Source of the DNA: Polynucleobacter sp. es-MAR-4
Lineage (GTDB): Bacteria; Pseudomonadota; Gammaproteobacteria; Burkholderiales; Burkholderiaceae
Assembly (NCBI RefSeq): GCF_018882055.1
Contig: NZ_JACVPF010000001.1
Span: 310,001-374,000 of the forward strand
Direction of reading: 5' to 3'
DNA length: 64,000 nucleotides
Made by a program: the position numbers and the translations under genes. The stretch's first letter is position 1. Each line of letters begins with the position of its first letter. The notes beneath the pieces are model-generated. The model did not search any database. It saw only the letters and a program-made list of their open reading frames with translations, and was not told where the DNA came from. Positions 4,325 to 38,842 of this stretch are shown here, piece after piece.

Positions 4325-5109
4325 GAGATTTCTCTATCTATTTGAAAACATTGAAAAAAGTTATTAGAGGTCTGTTGCGCTAGCGAATCAACAGAAACGC
4401 CCTTTAATTCAGCAACAAATTCACCTACTTTAGACACCCAGGCTGGCTCATTTGTCTTGCCGCGATAAGGAATTGGCGCCAAATACGGCGAATCCGTCTC
4501 AATCAACATGCGATCTAAAGGTACTTGCCTGCAGGTTTCCTGAAGATCCTTAGCGCTTTTAAACGTCACAATGCCTGAAAAAGAGATGTAAAAGCCCATT
4601 TCCATGGCCGCCTTGGCAACCTCGGTAGATTCTGTAAAGCAGTGCATCACACCACCAATTTGATCAGCACCCTCTTCTTTTAGGATTCGGAGCGTATCGG
4701 CTGAAGATGAGCGCGTATGAATGATGAGGGGCTTTTTAGATGCAATAGCCGCCCTGATATGGGTCCTGAAGCGTTCTCTTTGCCATTCCATGGATTCATA
4801 GCTACGATCACCCATTCGATAGTAATCAAGCCCGGTTTCGCCAATGGCAACGATTTTGGGATGCTTTGCCTCTTCAACCAAGAAATCAAAGCTAGGCTCT
4901 GGCGTATCTTCGTAATCAGGATGGACTCCAACGGAGGCATACAAATGAGCATGATCTTGAGCAAGCTTTTTTACATTAGGAAAATCAGGAATATCAACTG
5001 ATACGCAAAGTGCATGGCTCACCTTGCAGGCGGCCATATTGGCAAAAACCTCAGGCAAGCGCGTTTGAAATTCTGGGAAATCGAGGTGGCAATGGGAGTC
5101 TATAAACAT
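4321..5109 (-). CDS. tatD: TatD-family metal-dependent DNase
   Basis: The 262-residue protein has the TIM-barrel metallohydrolase motifs of the TatD/YcfH family: DSHCHLDFPEF at the N-terminus, GETGLDYYR with the metal Glu, IIHTRSS, VMHCFTES and ETDSPYLAP near the end. Family members are Mg-dependent 3'-5' nucleases, some also acting on D-aminoacyl-tRNA. It sits directly behind holB (11 bases), an arrangement seen in many proteobacteria. Confidence 0.92.
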   Translation of the reverse strand: MFIDSHCHLDFPEFQTRLPEVFANMAACKVSHALCVSVDIPDFPNVKKLAQDHAHLYASVGVHPDYEDTPEPSFDFLVEEAKHPKIVAIGETGLDYYRMGDRSYESMEWQRERFRTHIRAAIASKKPLIIHTRSSSADTLRILKEEGADQIGGVMHCFTESTEVAKAAMEMGFYISFSGIVTFKSAKDLQETCRQVPLDRMLIETDSPYLAPIPYRGKTNEPAWVSKVGEFVAELKGVSVDSLAQQTSNNFFQCFQIDREIS

Positions 5110-5120
5110 GACTCGCCATT

Positions 5121-6266
5121 TTAGTCTTCAAATACCTGTTGGTATTGAGAAAGCAAGGCTTCGAGCTGAATGCGGGTGGCCAGAGGGTGATTTTCATGGC
5201 GGCGGGCTTGTATTAAGGACTTCCAGAAACGAAGTAGCTTGGGAAGGCGAGCTTGTTGAGCAAGAGCCTTAATCGCCGCTTCATGTTTCGGGTAATAGCG
5301 AGGCGAACCCATTTGAGCGCAACTTTGTAAGTCTGAGACCCAGCGTTGCATCGTGGCTAACAAAACCGAGTAACGTGCTTTTTGCGTCTTGTCAGCAGCA
5401 TCTAACCAATTAATTCGAGCACCCTGTGACATCGCCTGTAATAAATAACGGGATGCTTGAATAGCAATAGTGAGCTCATCTTTTTCATCCTTGTGATGAC
5501 GCGCAATTAAGGAATCTAAGACCGCATAGGGCGCCCCGCCCTGCTCATCGTATATTGATTCAATGTCGGTATCGCTTATTTTTAGATCAGGAATAGTGTT
5601 GAGTTGATTGCGCAACCAATTGAGCCCACTTATGCGATCTGGTCTTGGCGCGGATAGCAAACGACAACGGGAACGAATGGTTGGTAAAACGCGATCAAGT
5701 CGATCTGCAAGCAAGATGAATATTGTATTTTTTGGCGGCTCTTCTAATGACTTTAGCAAGGTATTTGCAGAGTCTGATCTCAGCATTTCTAATGGATAAA
5801 CCAAAATGACACGATTGCCGCCACGGTGCGAGCCAATCGAAAGACCTTCAATTGCAGTACGCGCATCCTCAATCGAGATGCTTTTCTTTTCCTTTTTTTC
5901 CGGTGCATCACTATCGCCATCAGACTGACTGGCTTTAGATTTTTTGGGTAATTCAGAGTCAGAATCAAAATCACCGTGAGGCAAGAGCTTGCGATGTGTC
6001 TCGGGAACGAGGGCTATGAAGTCTGGGTGATTGCCGGAGTCAAACCACCTACATGCTTCGCAATGACTGCAAGGCTTTACAGCTGCTGATGCCTCACATA
6101 AAAGTGCTTTAGCCAATTGGATAGAAAATTCAAACTTACCAATGCCTGATTGACCATGAATCAAAACAGCATTGGGAAGCGCCGCCAAGTCCAGGCCATC
6201 CCAAATGGGCTCAAGCCAAGGTGCTATTTTTTTGGTTGAAGCTTGCGGAAACATCAGTTCACTCAT
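5121..6266 (-). CDS. holB: DNA polymerase III delta' subunit
   Basis: This 381-residue clamp-loader subunit has a Walker-A-like GQSGIGKFEF near residue 38, a four-Cys zinc module ending CSHCEACRWF, and an SRC-type motif at IRSRCRLL. The delta' subunit helps open the beta clamp during replication. Around residues 93-128 there is a charged, low-complexity stretch rich in Ser, Asp and Lys just before the IEDAR helix. Most relatives have a shorter loop here. The stop of this gene adjoins tatD, and its ATG directly follows the tmk stop. Confidence 0.95.
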   Translation of the reverse strand: MSELMFPQASTKKIAPWLEPIWDGLDLAALPNAVLIHGQSGIGKFEFSIQLAKALLCEASAAVKPCSHCEACRWFDSGNHPDFIALVPETHRKLLPHGDFDSDSELPKKSKASQSDGDSDAPEKKEKKSISIEDARTAIEGLSIGSHRGGNRVILVYPLEMLRSDSANTLLKSLEEPPKNTIFILLADRLDRVLPTIRSRCRLLSAPRPDRISGLNWLRNQLNTIPDLKISDTDIESIYDEQGGAPYAVLDSLIARHHKDEKDELTIAIQASRYLLQAMSQGARINWLDAADKTQKARYSVLLATMQRWVSDLQSCAQMGSPRYYPKHEAAIKALAQQARLPKLLRFWKSLIQARRHENHPLATRIQLEALLSQYQQVFED

Positions 6267-6905
6267 TTACAGCTGAATCTCCAAGGACTGTAGATCACCC
6301 CAAATTACTTCAGGGGTTCTAGTGGCGTCCACTAAATAAAAGCGACTAGGATCCGCCTTCGCCCTGCGTAGATATTCTTGCCGGACTTTCTCAAAAAAAT
6401 TTAAATCCATTTGCTCGAACTTGTCTGGCGCCCTAACCTTTGATCTTCTGGCTTCAGCAATGGATCCAGGCAAATCAAACAAGAATGTCAGGTCGGGTTT
6501 CAGTAATGAGCCATCCGAACGACCTTGCACCCAGCGCTCTAAATGATCTAATTTTTCAAGGCTTAAGCCACGTCCACCACCTTGATAAGCAAAGCTTGCA
6601 TCTGTAAAGCGATCGGAGATAACAATCTTCCCGGCACTTAATGCTGGCTCTATCACCTGAGCAATATGTTCTCGACGAGCAGCAAACATCAGTAGCGCTT
6701 CAGTCTCCAAGTTCATCGGAGCATCAAGCAATAATGCGCGCAGTTGTTCGCCCAATGGAGTGCCGCCCGGTTCCCTAGTCATGACAACATCACGGTCTGG
6801 ATATCGATCTTTCAAAAGTTGTCCAAAGGCATCAATATGCGTGCTCTTTCCAGCACCATCGATGCCCTCAAAACTAATGAAATAACCTGGTAAATGAGTT
6901 GTCAT
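6267..6905 (-). CDS. tmk: Thymidylate kinase
   Basis: The 212-residue enzyme phosphorylates dTMP to dTDP. The P-loop [13 protein letters not shown], the DR(F/Y) substrate motif in [19 protein letters not shown], and the [11 protein letters not shown] loop are all present. It lies in the mltG-tmk-holB order common in bacteria, with the holB ATG immediately after its stop and 5 bases between mltG and tmk, so the genes are almost certainly one transcript. Confidence 0.97.
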
Positions 6906-6910
6906 AGCTC

Positions 6911-7987
6911 TTACTGTGAAGTCGGTTTAGTGGCTGCATTTCGTTTACGTTGATATTGATCAACGGCATTCTCATGCTCTTTTAATGTTTTGGAAAAATG
7001 GCTGCTGCCATCACCACGCGCTACAAAATAAATTGCATCACTCATTGCTGGATGAATCACAGCCTGGAGAGACTCCTTGCTTGGCATGGCTATCGGGGTT
7101 GGTGGCAAACCTTTACGCATATAAGTATTGTAGGGACTGTCTTTCCGCAAATCTGCTTTTCGAAGATTCCCATCAAATTTAGGCCCAATGCCATAAATTA
7201 CAGTTGGATCGGTCTGTAAAGGCATATTGATCCGAAGGCGATTTACAAATACTGCAGACACCAGCGCTCGGTCACTAGGGCGGCCTGTCTCCTTTTCAAC
7301 TATTGAACCTAAAATCAGGAGATCGTAGGGGGTTTTTAATGGGGAAGTGGCATCTCTTTGATCCCAAGCCGCAGTCAGATGCTTCTGCATTGCCTTTGAG
7401 GCTCTTCGATAAATTGAAATATCAGAATCCTCTGGATCGAAAATGTAAGTATCAGGATAGAAAAGCCCCTCATCGCTCGGATAAGAAAGGTCTAAAGCTT
7501 TTAGCAGCTCTTTGGAGCTCATTCCCTTGGTTTGATGAATCAGGGCTGGGTGATTATCAATAAGGCTCCTGAGTTGCCATATAGTCACGCCAGGAATGAT
7601 GGTCACACTCTCTCGAACGCGATCTCCCCGCGCGAATTGAAGCAAAACATTGCCTAGACTAGCGCGAGTCGTTACGAGGTAAGTGCCCGGCTTGAGCTTG
7701 GAACCAACAAAAAGTACTCTCGCCGCAATCTGGAAAGCAACAACATTTGAGGATATCCCCTGCTCTGATAGTTGGCTTGATATGGCTGATAACCCAGACT
7801 GAGGGGCAATCTTCACTTTATAGGCTGAACCATCTGCGATATTTGATTGGGCTGGTACAACAGGCCATAAAAAGATGGCTCCATACAAAAGAATTAGAAA
7901 GGCTAATAGGTAGAGGGCATAGGATTTCCATGCCCCGCCATTCGAATGCTTTATAAATAGAGTTCTTCTCTGAAATTTTCTGCTCAT
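6911..7987 (-). CDS. mltG: Endolytic murein transglycosylase MltG
   Basis: MltG cleaves nascent glycan strands and so limits their length. The 358-residue form starts at the ATG at 7987 (MSRKFQRR), just before the single N-terminal membrane segment ([17 protein letters not shown]). An upstream in-frame start at 8077 would add 30 residues and overlap the divergent ygfZ, so I prefer 7987. The C-terminal YceG domain shows the catalytic Glu in [20 protein letters not shown] and [17 protein letters not shown]. The gene leads the tmk-holB-tatD operon. Confidence 0.93.
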
Positions 7988-8006
7988 CGAGCTATGATAA
8001 AAGCAC

Positions 8007-9014
8007 ATGACCCGGAACCCAGAAAACATCACAATGCCAGCCACTAGCCTGAATCGCGGATTTACCACTCTTACCAATTGGGGGGTGATTCTGGTTGAAG
8101 GTCCAGATGCAGCAACCCTCCTTCAGAGTCAATTGAGCAACTCCGTTTTAAGCCTCAAGCGCACCCTTTCAGGTGAAATAGCCCAGGGTCCAGGGGCCAT
8201 TCGCCTAGTTGGCTACTGCAATCCCAAGGGTCGCCTTTTGGCAAGCGCTTGGCTTGGCTTATTTCCTGAATCCCAGGATTCCGATGATCGTTTTGCCCTG
8301 TTTCTTTCCAAAGATATTGCAGCCAGCACTGCTAAGCGCCTATCGATGTACGTTCTGCGCTCAAAAGTCAAAGTAATTGACGCTTCAATCGACTGGGATG
8401 TTTATGGCTCCTATCAAAACGATCACGATGAACAGCCTAAACCTCTAACTGAGGGATCTATCGCATTACGCATACCAGATGTGGTCATTCACGAGCAATG
8501 CTTTCAGCGTACTCTCATTGCACAAAGAAAATCAGAGGCCAATGTATCGTTAATTGATGAGCTCGCCCTCGACCAGTGGAATTCTCTGGAGGTATTAAGT
8601 GCAATTCCACGCATTGTGCTGGCAACTCAGGAGCAGTTTGTTCCGCAGATGATTAACTTTGAATCAGTTGCGGGCGTAGATTTTAAAAAGGGTTGTTACC
8701 CAGGGCAAGAAATTGTTGCTCGTAGTCAATACCGTGGCGCTGTAAAGCGGCGACTTCAATTGGCGCATACAGATGCAAGTGTATCCAGCCTAAATTACGC
8801 TAAACCTGGTGTGGAGCTGTTTCACGATAGTGATGCTAGCCAGCCCTGCGGAATGGTGGTGCTAGCAGCACTTAACTCAGAAGATGGAAATCGTATTGAC
8901 CTTCAGATTGAATGCAAGTTAGATGCACTAGAGTCAGGTGCAATTCATCTAGGCATGAGCGAGGGGCCTGTGTTAAAAATAGACCAACTGCCCTACCCAT
9001 TATTAGAGATTTAA
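8007..9014 (+). CDS. ygfZ: YgfZ folate-binding protein, Fe-S cluster maintenance
   Basis: The 335-residue protein resembles the T-protein of the glycine cleavage system and helps to repair or assemble iron-sulfur enzymes in a tetrahydrofolate-dependent way. The diagnostic KGCYPGQEIVARSQYRG motif is present near residue 230. Two starts are possible: ATG at 8007 and ATG at 8034 (MPATSLNRG). The second aligns better with family N-termini but neither has a strong ribosome site. It diverges from mltG with under 50 bases between starts. Confidence 0.9.
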   Translation: MTRNPENITMPATSLNRGFTTLTNWGVILVEGPDAATLLQSQLSNSVLSLKRTLSGEIAQGPGAIRLVGYCNPKGRLLASAWLGLFPESQDSDDRFALFLSKDIAASTAKRLSMYVLRSKVKVIDASIDWDVYGSYQNDHDEQPKPLTEGSIALRIPDVVIHEQCFQRTLIAQRKSEANVSLIDELALDQWNSLEVLSAIPRIVLATQEQFVPQMINFESVAGVDFKKGCYPGQEIVARSQYRGAVKRRLQLAHTDASVSSLNYAKPGVELFHDSDASQPCGMVVLAALNSEDGNRIDLQIECKLDALESGAIHLGMSEGPVLKIDQLPYPLLEI

Positions 9015-34376: not shown

Positions 34377-34592
34377 TTACTTAGAGCAACCGCCGCCGCC
34401 ACAAGAACCGCTACCACTAGTATTGATTCCTAATAATGGATAGGCTGGGCAGAATCTAAACAGTCCTGTTGCCAAAGGAACAATGCCAATCCAAGCCCAA
34501 ACACCAGTCGTTCCTGTAATAGCCAAACCAATTAGCACTAGTCCAACGACAATTCGTAACATGCGGTCAATACCGCCAACATTGCATTTCAT
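34377..34592 (-). CDS. DUF2892 membrane protein with Cys-Gly tail
   Basis: The 71-residue protein has the DUF2892 start KCNVGGIDRMLRIVVGLVLIG, two membrane segments and FRFCPAYPLLGINT. It then ends SGSGSCGGGGCSK instead of the short tail usual for the family. In YgaP this domain anchors a rhodanese to the membrane; here a separate exported rhodanese lies just upstream (31-base gap). The flexible Gly/Cys tail could accept sulfur or bind metal; that is inference. Last gene of the second sulfur operon. Confidence 0.8.
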   Translation of the reverse strand: MKCNVGGIDRMLRIVVGLVLIGLAITGTTGVWAWIGIVPLATGLFRFCPAYPLLGINTSGSGSCGGGGCSK

Positions 34593-35613: not shown

Positions 35614-36237
35614 TTAATTTGAAAGTAATAAATGCTGTGAAAGCCGATCTAATAAATCAATCTTGCTTTCTGTTAAAACGTGATGACTCTTCGAATCTAA
35701 AGCCATATTTAAATCGCCAAGCTCAATCTTGAGCTCACCAATTTTTTGGTCTCTGCCCAGGATTAACATTTCCATTTCTATAAAATATAGTTTTGTTAAT
35801 GCACTGATCCAGCGTGCAATCGGCCCCATTCTGCCCTTTGTCGCCATATCAAAATTACGTAGCTCAGCGACTACCGATTTTGCTGATACAAACTTTTCAC
35901 CAGTAACCCATTGATTGGTGGTGAATAGGCGAACTGGCAAACCTTGCTGATTTAACGCAATCCCAATGAGGTGATGGAAATCATGTCCACATCTCTTAAA
36001 TAAGTGGAAATGACCATGCTCTCCATCCAGCATCTCATCTGCCGAGTGAGCGTGGTAATAAAATTCATAACCGCTTACTTCATCAACCAAGTCATTTGCT
36101 GGGTAATGATTCCACTCAATAAACTCTTTGGAGCCACACAACGCTACCTCACTAAGAGTTAAACCCTTCTTCGCGTAGCGCGTTTGGATACTGGCAATTT
36201 CTTGAGCAGCCAAACAGAGGGTGGATTGGATCAACAC
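35614..36237 (-). CDS. Uncharacterised His-rich protein in sulfur operon
   Basis: A 207-residue protein I do not recognise with confidence. No signal peptide or membrane segment is evident. Its centre is strongly patterned: FYYHAHSADEMLDGEHGHFH, then KRCGHDFHHLIGIALN and VRLFTTNQWVTGE. The cluster of His with Asp/Glu suggests metal or heme binding, which is inference. The C-terminal half is helical (ISALTKLYFIEMEMLILGRD). GTG at 36237 is the only credible start, 9 bases after the NPCGP gene. Gene context puts it in the sulfur operon. Confidence 0.75.
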   Translation of the reverse strand: MLIQSTLCLAAQEIASIQTRYAKKGLTLSEVALCGSKEFIEWNHYPANDLVDEVSGYEFYYHAHSADEMLDGEHGHFHLFKRCGHDFHHLIGIALNQQGLPVRLFTTNQWVTGEKFVSAKSVVAELRNFDMATKGRMGPIARWISALTKLYFIEMEMLILGRDQKIGELKIELGDLNMALDSKSHHVLTESKIDLLDRLSQHLLLSN

Positions 36238-36246
36238 GTTAATGAA

Positions 36247-36480
36247 TTATTCAGCTGATTTACGCTTTTTAGGGCCGCATGGGTTTGATGGGCCACAAGG
36301 ATTAGCCGCCTTCTTTTTAGCGGGACCACATGGGTTGTTTGAGTCTTTTTTAGGGCCGCAAGGATTCTTTTGCTCGGCACCAGCTGGTGTTGTCGGAGCA
36401 TCTGCTGCATTAGCCATTGGGGCTGATGCTAATCCTGCCAATGCTAACGCTAATGCAACTACAGTTGATTTTTTAGACAT
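36247..36480 (-). CDS. Exported NPCGP-repeat peptide
   Basis: The 77-residue precursor has a signal peptide (to about AMANA, residue 25) and a ~50-residue mature part with four NPCGP units at Cys 41, 51, 62 and 68, separated by Lys-rich spacers of 1 to 6 residues. There are no other cysteines and no fold can be assigned; it looks like a natively unfolded, basic thiol-rich peptide. The ATG at 36480 is preceded by AAAAGGAAA; an in-frame start at 36579 lies in the preceding gene. It is encoded between a YeeE/YedE pair and the His-rich protein. Confidence 0.85.
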   Translation of the reverse strand: MSKKSTVVALALALAGLASAPMANAADAPTTPAGAEQKNPCGPKKDSNNPCGPAKKKAANPCGPSNPCGPKKRKSAE

Positions 36481-36499: not shown

Positions 36500-37069
36500 T
36501 TAAATTTCTTGTGAGCTAACTGGGCCACGTGATTTCTTTTCCATCCAAGAACCCAAAGCGAATACACCAACCGCCGCAACTACCATGGCGACATCAATAG
36601 ATAAAGTGGAAACGCTCAAGAGTTCTGGCAATGAATCGGCATTCGCAATTTCCCCAAGAGTGGTGAGCGATTCAATGCTTGGATAAATACCAGCGAATAT
36701 AACTGTCCCAAGCAGTAATCCGATTAAGAAGATGCCGGCGTCAATACGACCGGACATGAGGCCAACCACTGAAGTCCCAGGGCAATAACCACCGATAGCA
36801 AAGCCTGCTCCAACAAAGGCACCACCTAAGGCAGCAGCCCCTAAAAATGATGGCGGAACAAAAAGGCTACCACCCTCTACAAATCCAGCTTTTTCTAAAA
36901 TGAGAAGTCCGACTGCAGCAAATACGATTGCAGTAAACATGACTTTAAATACAGACCAATCTGTCAAACGAAATTGGCCTGTTAATTTATTAGGGTTGCC
37001 AAAACCAGCACGCTCGAGCACAAAACCAAAGGCTCCACCAAGTAATAAACCCGAAAGAATAGCTTCCAT
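36500..37069 (-). CDS. YeeE/YedE-type sulfur transporter half (second pair)
   Basis: A membrane protein of 189 residues with five or so hydrophobic segments. The motif GFAIGGYCPGTSVVGLMSGRID holds the conserved pore Cys of the C-terminal half. The N-terminal GLLLGGAFGFVLERAGFGN is typical of the family. It pairs with the 174-residue half encoded 1 base upstream. Which sulfur compound it carries is unknown. Confidence 0.86.
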   Translation of the reverse strand: MEAILSGLLLGGAFGFVLERAGFGNPNKLTGQFRLTDWSVFKVMFTAIVFAAVGLLILEKAGFVEGGSLFVPPSFLGAAALGGAFVGAGFAIGGYCPGTSVVGLMSGRIDAGIFLIGLLLGTVIFAGIYPSIESLTTLGEIANADSLPELLSVSTLSIDVAMVVAAVGVFALGSWMEKKSRGPVSSQEI

Positions 37070-37070
37070 C

Positions 37071-37595
37071 TTATTTCTCCTCTTTCATAAAGCGACTAGC
37101 CAATAAACCAACTGCAAAGAACGCACCTAAAAATGTGAACCCAGCAAGGCTAAGCACGGCTGCGCCTGAAAGGCCTAAGCCACTGGTGCAGCCCGCAGCA
37201 ATACGCGCACCAAAGCCAGCCAACAATCCACCAAATAAAGCCGTTAATGGGCGCTTGGATCCGCCTAAGAAACGCTTACCATCCAACTTCACCGCGATTC
37301 GTCCCGCAAGAAATGCTGAAAGTAATGCGCCCAGGGCAACACCTATAACTTGCCAGCTAATCCATGCATCCAGTGGTCTACCCTCTTCAACCATGCCACC
37401 CAAATAGTCATTGGCATTTGTGGCTGCTGGCAATAAATACATTCCAAACCATGCTGTTAGGCGTGTCGTGAATCCGGTCGCACCCAAGCCATGACCGGTA
37501 ATAACAAATGTTGATAAAAGCACAATACCAAGCAGAATTCCAGCAATCAGCGGATTCCAGTATGGAGCTGGACAATTTTGAACTTTTTGATTCAT
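37071..37595 (-). CDS. YeeE/YedE-type sulfur transporter half (second pair)
   Basis: This 174-residue membrane protein has the motif GARIAAGCTSGLGLSGAAVL with the conserved Cys of the N-terminal half of the fold. It is the first gene of the second sulfur operon and is separated by one base from its partner half. A sigma70-like promoter, an FNR box and an AT-rich palindrome lie just upstream. Divergence from the 145-residue homologue at 22015 suggests a separate lineage rather than a recent copy. Confidence 0.87.
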   Translation of the reverse strand: MNQKVQNCPAPYWNPLIAGILLGIVLLSTFVITGHGLGATGFTTRLTAWFGMYLLPAATNANDYLGGMVEEGRPLDAWISWQVIGVALGALLSAFLAGRIAVKLDGKRFLGGSKRPLTALFGGLLAGFGARIAAGCTSGLGLSGAAVLSLAGFTFLGAFFAVGLLASRFMKEEK

Positions 37596-37747: not shown

Positions 37748-38332
37748 CTAGAATTCACCCTTGACTGTAGTTAAGCCTAGAGCATCCCAATCGAGCATGC
37801 GGCCACGGTAGTAGTAAATCTTAGTAGCGGGAAAGCCATCACGAACCATAGCAGCTATTGCCATTGGACTTTGTGGACAAACCGGGCCATTACAGAAGGC
37901 ATATACCTTCATCGCTTTAGAACAATCCCATTTTGTGGATCCGGCAGCTGGCTTCTTGCACCCCAGCTCATCCATGCGCATAGCAACTTCGGTATAAGGA
38001 ATACCGACAGATCCTGGAATAGTACCTTTAACGCGATCATCAATGACGCGCATATCTACAACAATCGATCCCTTGTCATTCAGTGCATTCAAGACATCAA
38101 TCTCATCTACCGGCACAACCCCCTTAATTGGAATTAATGGCTGTAACCAACCCTTATTCTTGGCACACGAGGTCATTACGCGGGTAATTTCAACTGGACC
38201 CTTGGGTGTGCTCACTACAAACTTAGTTGATTTATCAATAATTTGAAGCAATTCAGGGTTTGATTGAGGGGTTGATTGAGCAAAAATAAGTGCCGAAAAC
38301 AAGCTTAGACTAAAAAATAGTAACTTTTTCAT
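37748..38332 (-). CDS. Exported single-domain rhodanese
   Basis: Of 194 residues, the first ~19 form a signal peptide (to ALIFAQ). The rhodanese domain carries the active loop VYAFCNGPVCPQSPMA; the two Cys spaced by four residues differ from the usual single-Cys loop. DMRVIDDRVKGTIPGSVGIPYTEVAMRM is the N-terminal rhodanese motif. GAGGTTTT precedes the ATG. It is monocistronic, with a terminator downstream and a candidate SoxR site 42 bases upstream of its start. Its role in periplasmic sulfur transfer is inferred. Confidence 0.88.
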   Translation of the reverse strand: MKKLLFFSLSLFSALIFAQSTPQSNPELLQIIDKSTKFVVSTPKGPVEITRVMTSCAKNKGWLQPLIPIKGVVPVDEIDVLNALNDKGSIVVDMRVIDDRVKGTIPGSVGIPYTEVAMRMDELGCKKPAAGSTKWDCSKAMKVYAFCNGPVCPQSPMAIAAMVRDGFPATKIYYYRGRMLDWDALGLTTVKGEF

Positions 38333-38533: not shown

Positions 38534-38842
38534 ATGAAAAATAGTCGTCGCCAATTCATGATTTTGTCTGCTGCTGGTGCTTGTACATTGGCTTTGAACG
38601 GTAAAGTTCAAGCTCAAGCAATGGTTTCTGAAACCGATCCACAAGCCGCTGCTTTGGGTTACAAAGCTGTTGCCACATCAGTTGATAAAGCAAAGTATGC
38701 AAAATACGCAGCTGGTCAAGAGTGCGATAACTGCGCTTTGTTCCAAGGCAAAGTTGGTGATGCGACCGGCGGCTGCTCTTTGTTTGGCACTAAGAAAGTT
38801 GCTGGCAAAGGCTGGTGCTCTGCTTATGCTAAAAAGGCTTAA
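38534..38842 (+). CDS. High-potential iron-sulfur protein (HiPIP)
   Basis: The 102-residue precursor has a Tat signal, MKNSRRQFMILSAAGACTL, and a mature domain with four cluster Cys: GQECDNCALFQGK, GGCSLFGTK and KGWCSAYAKK. HiPIPs carry one electron in the periplasm on a [4Fe-4S] cluster and feed reaction centres or terminal oxidases. Beside sox genes it may carry electrons from thiosulfate oxidation. GGAG precedes the ATG, and a strong terminator follows. Confidence 0.95.
   Translation: MKNSRRQFMILSAAGACTLALNGKVQAQAMVSETDPQAAALGYKAVATSVDKAKYAKYAAGQECDNCALFQGKVGDATGGCSLFGTKKVAGKGWCSAYAKKA

Follow-up and report, generated by a model that had tools for sequence, protein, structure and literature searches.

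What does a small exported peptide made largely of repeats do beside genes of sulfur chemistry, and which of its neighbors act on it? The question is raised by a 77-residue precursor with four NPCGP units that is encoded in a 64,000-nucleotide stretch of the Polynucleobacter sp. es-MAR-4 genome, referred to here as the window (Table 1). A preliminary description of the peptide had offered three options for its role: a periplasmic thiol buffer, a sulfur or metal acceptor, or a modified peptide.

The peptide and its gene cassette

The peptide gene is real. Relatives are encoded at 47 loci, located by a search of genome contigs, and together with the codon constraint given below they rule out a chance low-complexity ORF. 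The sequence titles of these loci name Burkholderiales or betaproteobacteria, except for two MAGs titled Gammaproteobacteria (L068) and Pseudomonadota (L075). Sixteen weak matches in other genera (E 0.001–0.01), several of which cross stop codons, were excluded. The gene lies on the minus strand, on which the preliminary description was silent; the plus-strand reading of the region is full of stops, and a 97-aa plus-strand ORF across the same bases was taken as a mirror frame.

All four cysteines of the precursor fall inside the NPCGP units, as had been claimed for the mature chain, and their positions are conserved among relatives. A tally of 54 distinct relatives, which leaves out four of the 47 loci (L062, L065, L075 and L077), places 210 of the 214 cysteines after residue 22 within the motif [NSK]PC[GASP][PAR], with four units in 44 proteins, three in six, five in three and one in a single protein. 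The pN/pS ratio, calculated for 27 distinct genes from Polynucleobacter-like loci, is 0.016 at the motif codons, 0.139 in the linkers and 0.143 in the signal region. That signal region was assigned by eye from an n-region, a hydrophobic core and an A-x-A pattern. Past the presumed cleavage site the linkers are basic (10 Lys and Arg versus 3 Asp and Glu), in keeping with the earlier account. The chain is predicted to be disordered; the AlphaFold model has a mean pLDDT of 53.7 and a sole helix at residues 6–17, which fits the "unfolded" chain described before. Of the 17 papers matched by motif strings of the repeat in a literature search, the 15 listed are all unrelated by title.

The peptide, DUF6969, two YeeE halves and an exported rhodanese constitute one cassette in the Polynucleobacter lineage. 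Read along the minus strand, the cassette runs from the two YeeE halves through the peptide and DUF6969 to the rhodanese. The three gaps that come after the second YeeE half measure 19, 9 and 13 bp, the 9 bp separating the peptide gene from that of DUF6969. The two membrane genes match PF04143 with 45.8 and 67.6 bits versus a cut-off of 27, and their PmpA-like and PmpB-like labels stem from a comparison with the available portion of PMC11582611. The cassette rhodanese also gave a mercaptopyruvate sulfurtransferase-like match, below the cut-off. At all 47 loci the next gene after the peptide is that of DUF6969, and neither YeeE half is missing. The rhodanese occurs at 46, the 47th (L060) being cut by a contig end. 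At one locus (L051) the peptide–DUF6969 pair lies 2–3 kb from the YeeE and rhodanese genes and adjoins ArsR-soxCDYZ. Genes of the sox group fall inside the fetched stretch at 12 of the 47 loci, and soxY is present within the window. The peptide gene had been placed between a YeeE/YedE pair and a rhodanese; the YeeE pair does adjoin it, but the rhodanese is not directly beside it because the DUF6969 gene lies between. Two outcomes had been named as speaking against a sulfur role, a family found mainly away from sulfur genes and cysteines not conserved across relatives; neither was found for the direct family, since the sulfur neighbors are kept and the cysteines are conserved.

Table 1 The peptide cassette and flanking features in the window.
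Feature	Coordinates	Strand	Basis
Second exported rhodanese-domain protein, upstream of cassette	37748..38332	(-)	PF00581, E 3.9e-5
YeeE half, C-terminal part of PF04143 (PmpA-like), one Cys in AAGCTSG	37071..37595	(-)	Pfam
YeeE half, N-terminal part of PF04143 (PmpB-like), one Cys in GGYCPG	36500..37069	(-)	Pfam
Cys-repeat peptide precursor, 77 aa, four NPCGP units	36247..36480	(-)	ORF and relatives
DUF6969 (PF22308), 207 aa, GTG start	35614..36237	(-)	Pfam, E 3e-49
Two-domain rhodanese (SseA-like), signal peptide by eye, CNSGHLA loop	34623..35600	(-)	PF00581
YgaP-like transmembrane protein, 71 aa, after rhodanese	34377..34592	(-)	PF11127, E 4e-23

The YgaP-like gene is possibly on the same transcript as the rhodanese. 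The second exported rhodanese-domain gene is more loosely associated with the cassette. Near it, on the opposite strand, lies a HiPIP gene (38534–38842), which is kept in many Polynucleobacter loci.

The DUF6969 protein

The gene that follows the peptide, on which the preliminary description was also silent, changes the reading of the locus. Its product matches PF22308 with 167.8 bits versus a cut-off of 27 and, judged by eye, has no signal peptide. Nine residues (P46, H62, H64, H76, H78, H89, F105, N108 and R162), five of them histidines, are identical in all 128 relatives compared. In the AlphaFold model (pLDDT 91.9), residues 45–107 contain five strands, on which H62, H76, H78 and H89 sit. 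We infer a cytosolic, metal-dependent protein with a histidine cluster on and beside a β-sheet. Comparisons with the PDB by Foldseek (best E 0.22), VIA-align (best Z 3.8) and sequence profile revealed no clear match; the predicted structure is perhaps a new fold, although an absent PDB match does not prove one. No paper was found by searching for "DUF6969" or "PF22308", which does not prove absence from print because most subscription papers lie outside that search.

In a tree of 93 DUF6969 rows, the 14 sampled peptide-family rows form one side of a branch (91/86), and several clades have no Cys-repeat neighbor. L115 adjoins the peptide-family rows at 88/70, and it is one of four very long branches (with L116, L114 and L113) whose placement is unsure.

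Recurrence of Cys-repeat genes beside DUF6969

The peptide and DUF6969 are a well-supported recurring pair. Among 40 listed genomes of the same genus, DUF6969 is encoded in 20 of the 20 that have the peptide and in one of the 20 that lack it. In the lone genome with DUF6969 and no such peptide (G264, locus L116), another kind of exported Cys-repeat peptide is encoded two genes ahead of DUF6969. There, the divergent DUF6969 gene stands downstream of two others, one for an exported CAPK/CAAK-repeat peptide of 67 aa and one for a Cys-rich protein carrying a SoxA/TsdA-type cytochrome c domain; the genes downstream were read by us as AhpD-like, thioredoxin-like and CcdA-like. More broadly, 20 of 398 genomes of the phylum have a PF22308 match, and so do 90 of the 385 genomes searched in another of its classes, taken as Alphaproteobacteria.

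An exported Cys-repeat ORF lies near DUF6969 at 14 of 17 loci outside the genus, 13 by a fixed criterion and L115 by eye. None was seen at L099, L109 and L106, the last of which lies at a contig edge in a genome that has NPC repeats elsewhere. Control regions (232 kb), drawn from 14 of the 16 genomes behind these loci, contained no such ORF (0/14). A further 60 loci, picked by hand from ~100 places with some same-genus copies and short partial matches left out, yielded 34 with a nearby repeat: 33 within 3 kb by the unchanged criterion, a count that excludes the automatic match at L191 as an antisense artefact, and L193 by eye. Three more (L135, L150 and L156) have Cys-repeat ORFs at 4.3–7.1 kb, and at 23, some near contig ends, none was detected in the fetched DNA. 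At these 60 loci, 40 Cys-repeat ORFs (one of them an artefact) occur in the 229 kb at 0–2 kb from DUF6969, versus 5 in the 687 kb at 2–9 kb, where a match at L177, 5.35 kb away and resembling an antisense artefact, was kept in the background count. The repeats vary in type and include NPCAAK, NPCNPCAAK, CAAKKP, CGAK, CAAG and others. A genome-wide search for NPC repeats found them in 15 of 40 DUF6969 genomes (7 of 13 with a known nearby repeat and 8 of 27 without) and in none of 40 genomes lacking DUF6969. This last result is taken as supporting only, because the search missed 6 of the 13 known positives and the genomes lacking DUF6969 are mostly smaller.

The association with exported Cys repeats provides a first functional context for the DUF6969 family, and for many low-complexity proteins, some of which have no listed gene in the annotation table. 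The recurrence of the two kinds of gene points to an undescribed system that makes and uses cysteine-repeat proteins. A wider or different job for DUF6969 is possible, because it adjoins an mlaE/ATPase/mlaD/lipoprotein operon with no Cys repeats on two Azospirillum plasmids (L194 and L195), and because one Polynucleobacter peptide is reduced to a single SPCGP unit where DUF6969 is retained. DUF2336 genes also recur in the neighborhood, accounting for 3 of 93 neighbor ORFs scanned at L099–L116 and 7 of 108 at L134–L176, where the Pfam tally covers 108 of 224 counted ORFs.

Sulfur, metal and haem contexts

Our preferred reading, to which we give slightly less than even weight, is that DUF6969 matures exported Pro-Cys-repeat precursors and that the peptide of this operon carries periplasmic sulfur. 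DUF6969 would act on the Pro-Cys repeats in the cytosol prior to Sec export, most likely by modifying the peptide cysteines or by loading a metal. The mature disordered, basic, multi-cysteine peptide would then work in the periplasm, where it may take sulfane sulfur from the rhodanese (or from Sox intermediates) and hand it on to the two YeeE halves, for which it would be the periplasmic-side carrier and which would carry the sulfur inward. Maturation before export is suggested by the position of a signal-less DUF6969 next to an exported repeat, by its enzyme-like conservation, and by the divergent copy that accompanies a different repeat. Among the roles offered in the preliminary description, the modified peptide has gained most.

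Maturation is the best explanation of these features, and it would parallel the action of MNIOs on bufferins that the available text of PMC12452194 describes. Bufferins and the EGKCG/oxazolin peptides, which are modified by MNIOs (PF05114, with DUF2063), resemble our peptide in that each is a Cys-rich precursor exported by Sec and encoded with a cytosolic partner of its own; the peptide shows both the signal region, by eye, and the Cys content. Fusion to cytochrome c and the company of FGE-like proteins are further traits that bufferins share with DUF6969-linked repeats. However, the peptide repeat is Pro-Cys and its partner belongs to a family other than MNIO. No MNIO was detected in the es-MAR-4 genome, nor in the 21 Polynucleobacter genomes examined that encode DUF6969, which argues against a bufferin system here, and the DUF2282 (Buf1) profile gave no match to the peptide. 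Membership among the bufferins is ruled out on these two grounds; the system would be bufferin-like in its working, with putative chemistry and cargo. The only Pfam match of the peptide, defensin-like and sub-threshold (E 0.017), was taken as chance.

The likeness to known sulfur importers lies in the YeeE halves. YeeD is the E. coli partner of YeeE (PMC11073785, as far as excerpted), and PmpA/PmpB are described as two YeeE halves with one Cys each in the available portion of PMC11582611, an arrangement shared by the cassette and comparable to YeeE/YeeD (TsuA/TsuB). In contrast to YeeE/YeeD, no YeeD counterpart is found among the genes of this operon, which has the peptide, DUF6969 and the rhodanese instead. 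The peptide is a candidate for how sulfur reaches split YeeE importers that have no adjoining YeeD. A sulfur reading drawn from the YeeE halves alone is weakened by the same portion of PMC11582611, which reports finding no evidence that a PmpAB pair in Hyphomicrobium denitrificans serves sulfur oxidation.

In SoxYZ, a periplasmic Cys carries sulfur intermediates. The peptide resembles it as a putative periplasmic Cys carrier and differs in presenting four cysteines in a disordered repeat; it has no match to the SoxY domain and ends in KKRKSAE, not in a C-terminal GGCGG arm. Metallothioneins are small, Cys-rich and possible metal sinks, whereas the peptide is exported, has one Cys per unit and no CxC clusters, and has no Pfam metallothionein match.

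Sulfur genes accompany the pair in distant relatives as well. On pSymB of the laboratory strain Sinorhizobium meliloti 1021, a rhodanese, a full-length YeeE, a Cys-repeat peptide whose four cysteines lie in PC[AS]A motifs, and DUF6969 follow in a row, the parts of the Polynucleobacter cassette in a different order; this cassette makes the proposal directly testable. At three other Sinorhizobium loci a rhodanese and YeeE stand ahead of the peptide–DUF6969 pair, and pSymA of strain R14 has the pair without YeeE. For strains R14 and RCAM1115, PLSDB, an incomplete table, has no gene entry at the position of the peptide. YeeE, a Cys-repeat peptide and DUF6969 also occur together at L115 (with a rhodanese), L189 and L193.

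The sulfur neighbors, present at 47 of 47 direct-family loci and in Sinorhizobium, and the strong constraint that keeps only the motif cysteines would also suit an unmodified peptide serving as a multi-thiol sulfane-sulfur carrier or thiol buffer, with DUF6969 as a regulator, chaperone or export aid. We consider this unlikely: DUF6969 also accompanies Cys repeats at places remote from any sulfur gene, and the His, Asn and Arg residues that never vary in it suggest catalysis or metal binding. The earlier sulfur interpretation is partly supported; the sulfur neighbors are kept throughout the direct family, but outside the peptide-family branch the link is partial, because YeeE or rhodanese genes lie within 3 kb of DUF6969 at only 12 of 78 other loci. 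Sulfur is not the general rule, since FGE-like genes and haem proteins are commoner near DUF6969.

FGE-like genes occur within 3 kb of DUF6969 at 22 of the 78 loci, a count made at DUF6969 loci only; the FGE-sulfatase-like neighbors are at L101 (8814–9677), L134, L146, L157 and 18 other loci. In the L101 protein a signal peptide is likely, judged by eye. The available text of PMC12452194 describes FGEs as cuproenzymes and Buf1/cytochrome c/FGE fusions among bufferins. At L113, one strand (5109–8633) groups an MNIO (PF05114), DUF2063 and DoxX with DUF6969 and an exported CGAK-repeat peptide, a cluster that links the bufferin and DUF6969 worlds. Of the 13 distant genomes with DUF6969 that were tested, 9 encode an MNIO at some position. 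The FGE-like neighbors, the fusions and L113 speak for a bufferin-like periplasmic sink for copper or another soft metal, with DUF6969 as a maturation or metal-loading factor and the sulfur genes incidental. That account is doubtful for the Polynucleobacter cassette, in which no copper gene was recognized when the proteins were scanned with Pfam and YeeE and rhodanese are retained together at 46 of 47 loci.

Exported CxxCH ORFs are concentrated within 2 kb of DUF6969, with 37 in 299 kb as compared with 8 in 879 kb farther out and 1 in 232 kb of controls. A P460 domain is present in 18 of 43 Cys-repeat proteins near DUF6969, and a SoxA/TsdA-type cytochrome domain at five loci. These proteins, together with thioredoxin and CcdA near L116 (our reading) and L198 (annotated), could indicate that the pair serves periplasmic redox or haem-protein chemistry such as electron transfer, cytochrome c or thiol-disulfide upkeep, which is improbable here given a cassette with no cytochrome gene and a bare peptide with no CxxCH.

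With sulfur delivery preferred for this operon, the cargo in other lineages may be electrons or copper, as suggested by repeats fused to haem domains or lying beside FGE-like genes. More tentatively than the reading for this operon, DUF6969 may represent a new class of metal-dependent maturation enzymes, with no relationship to the MNIOs and possibly a new fold, which would modify the Pro-Cys repeats of Sec-exported precursors and the Cys-repeat tails of haem proteins, the product in the sulfur branch being a periplasmic multi-cysteine carrier that loads the YeeE importer.

At six loci with no near Cys-repeat gene (L139, L149, L151, L176, L182 and L192), an exported CxxCH ORF lies within 350 bp of DUF6969. 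A Burkholderia glumae plasmid (L198, 47–7033) has a row of genes for thioredoxin, CcdA, a sigma-70 factor, zf-HC2 and MFS proteins, a Cys-repeat peptide of 89 aa, DUF6969 and a phosphorylase, followed by two that bear the name arsenosugar glycosyltransferase.
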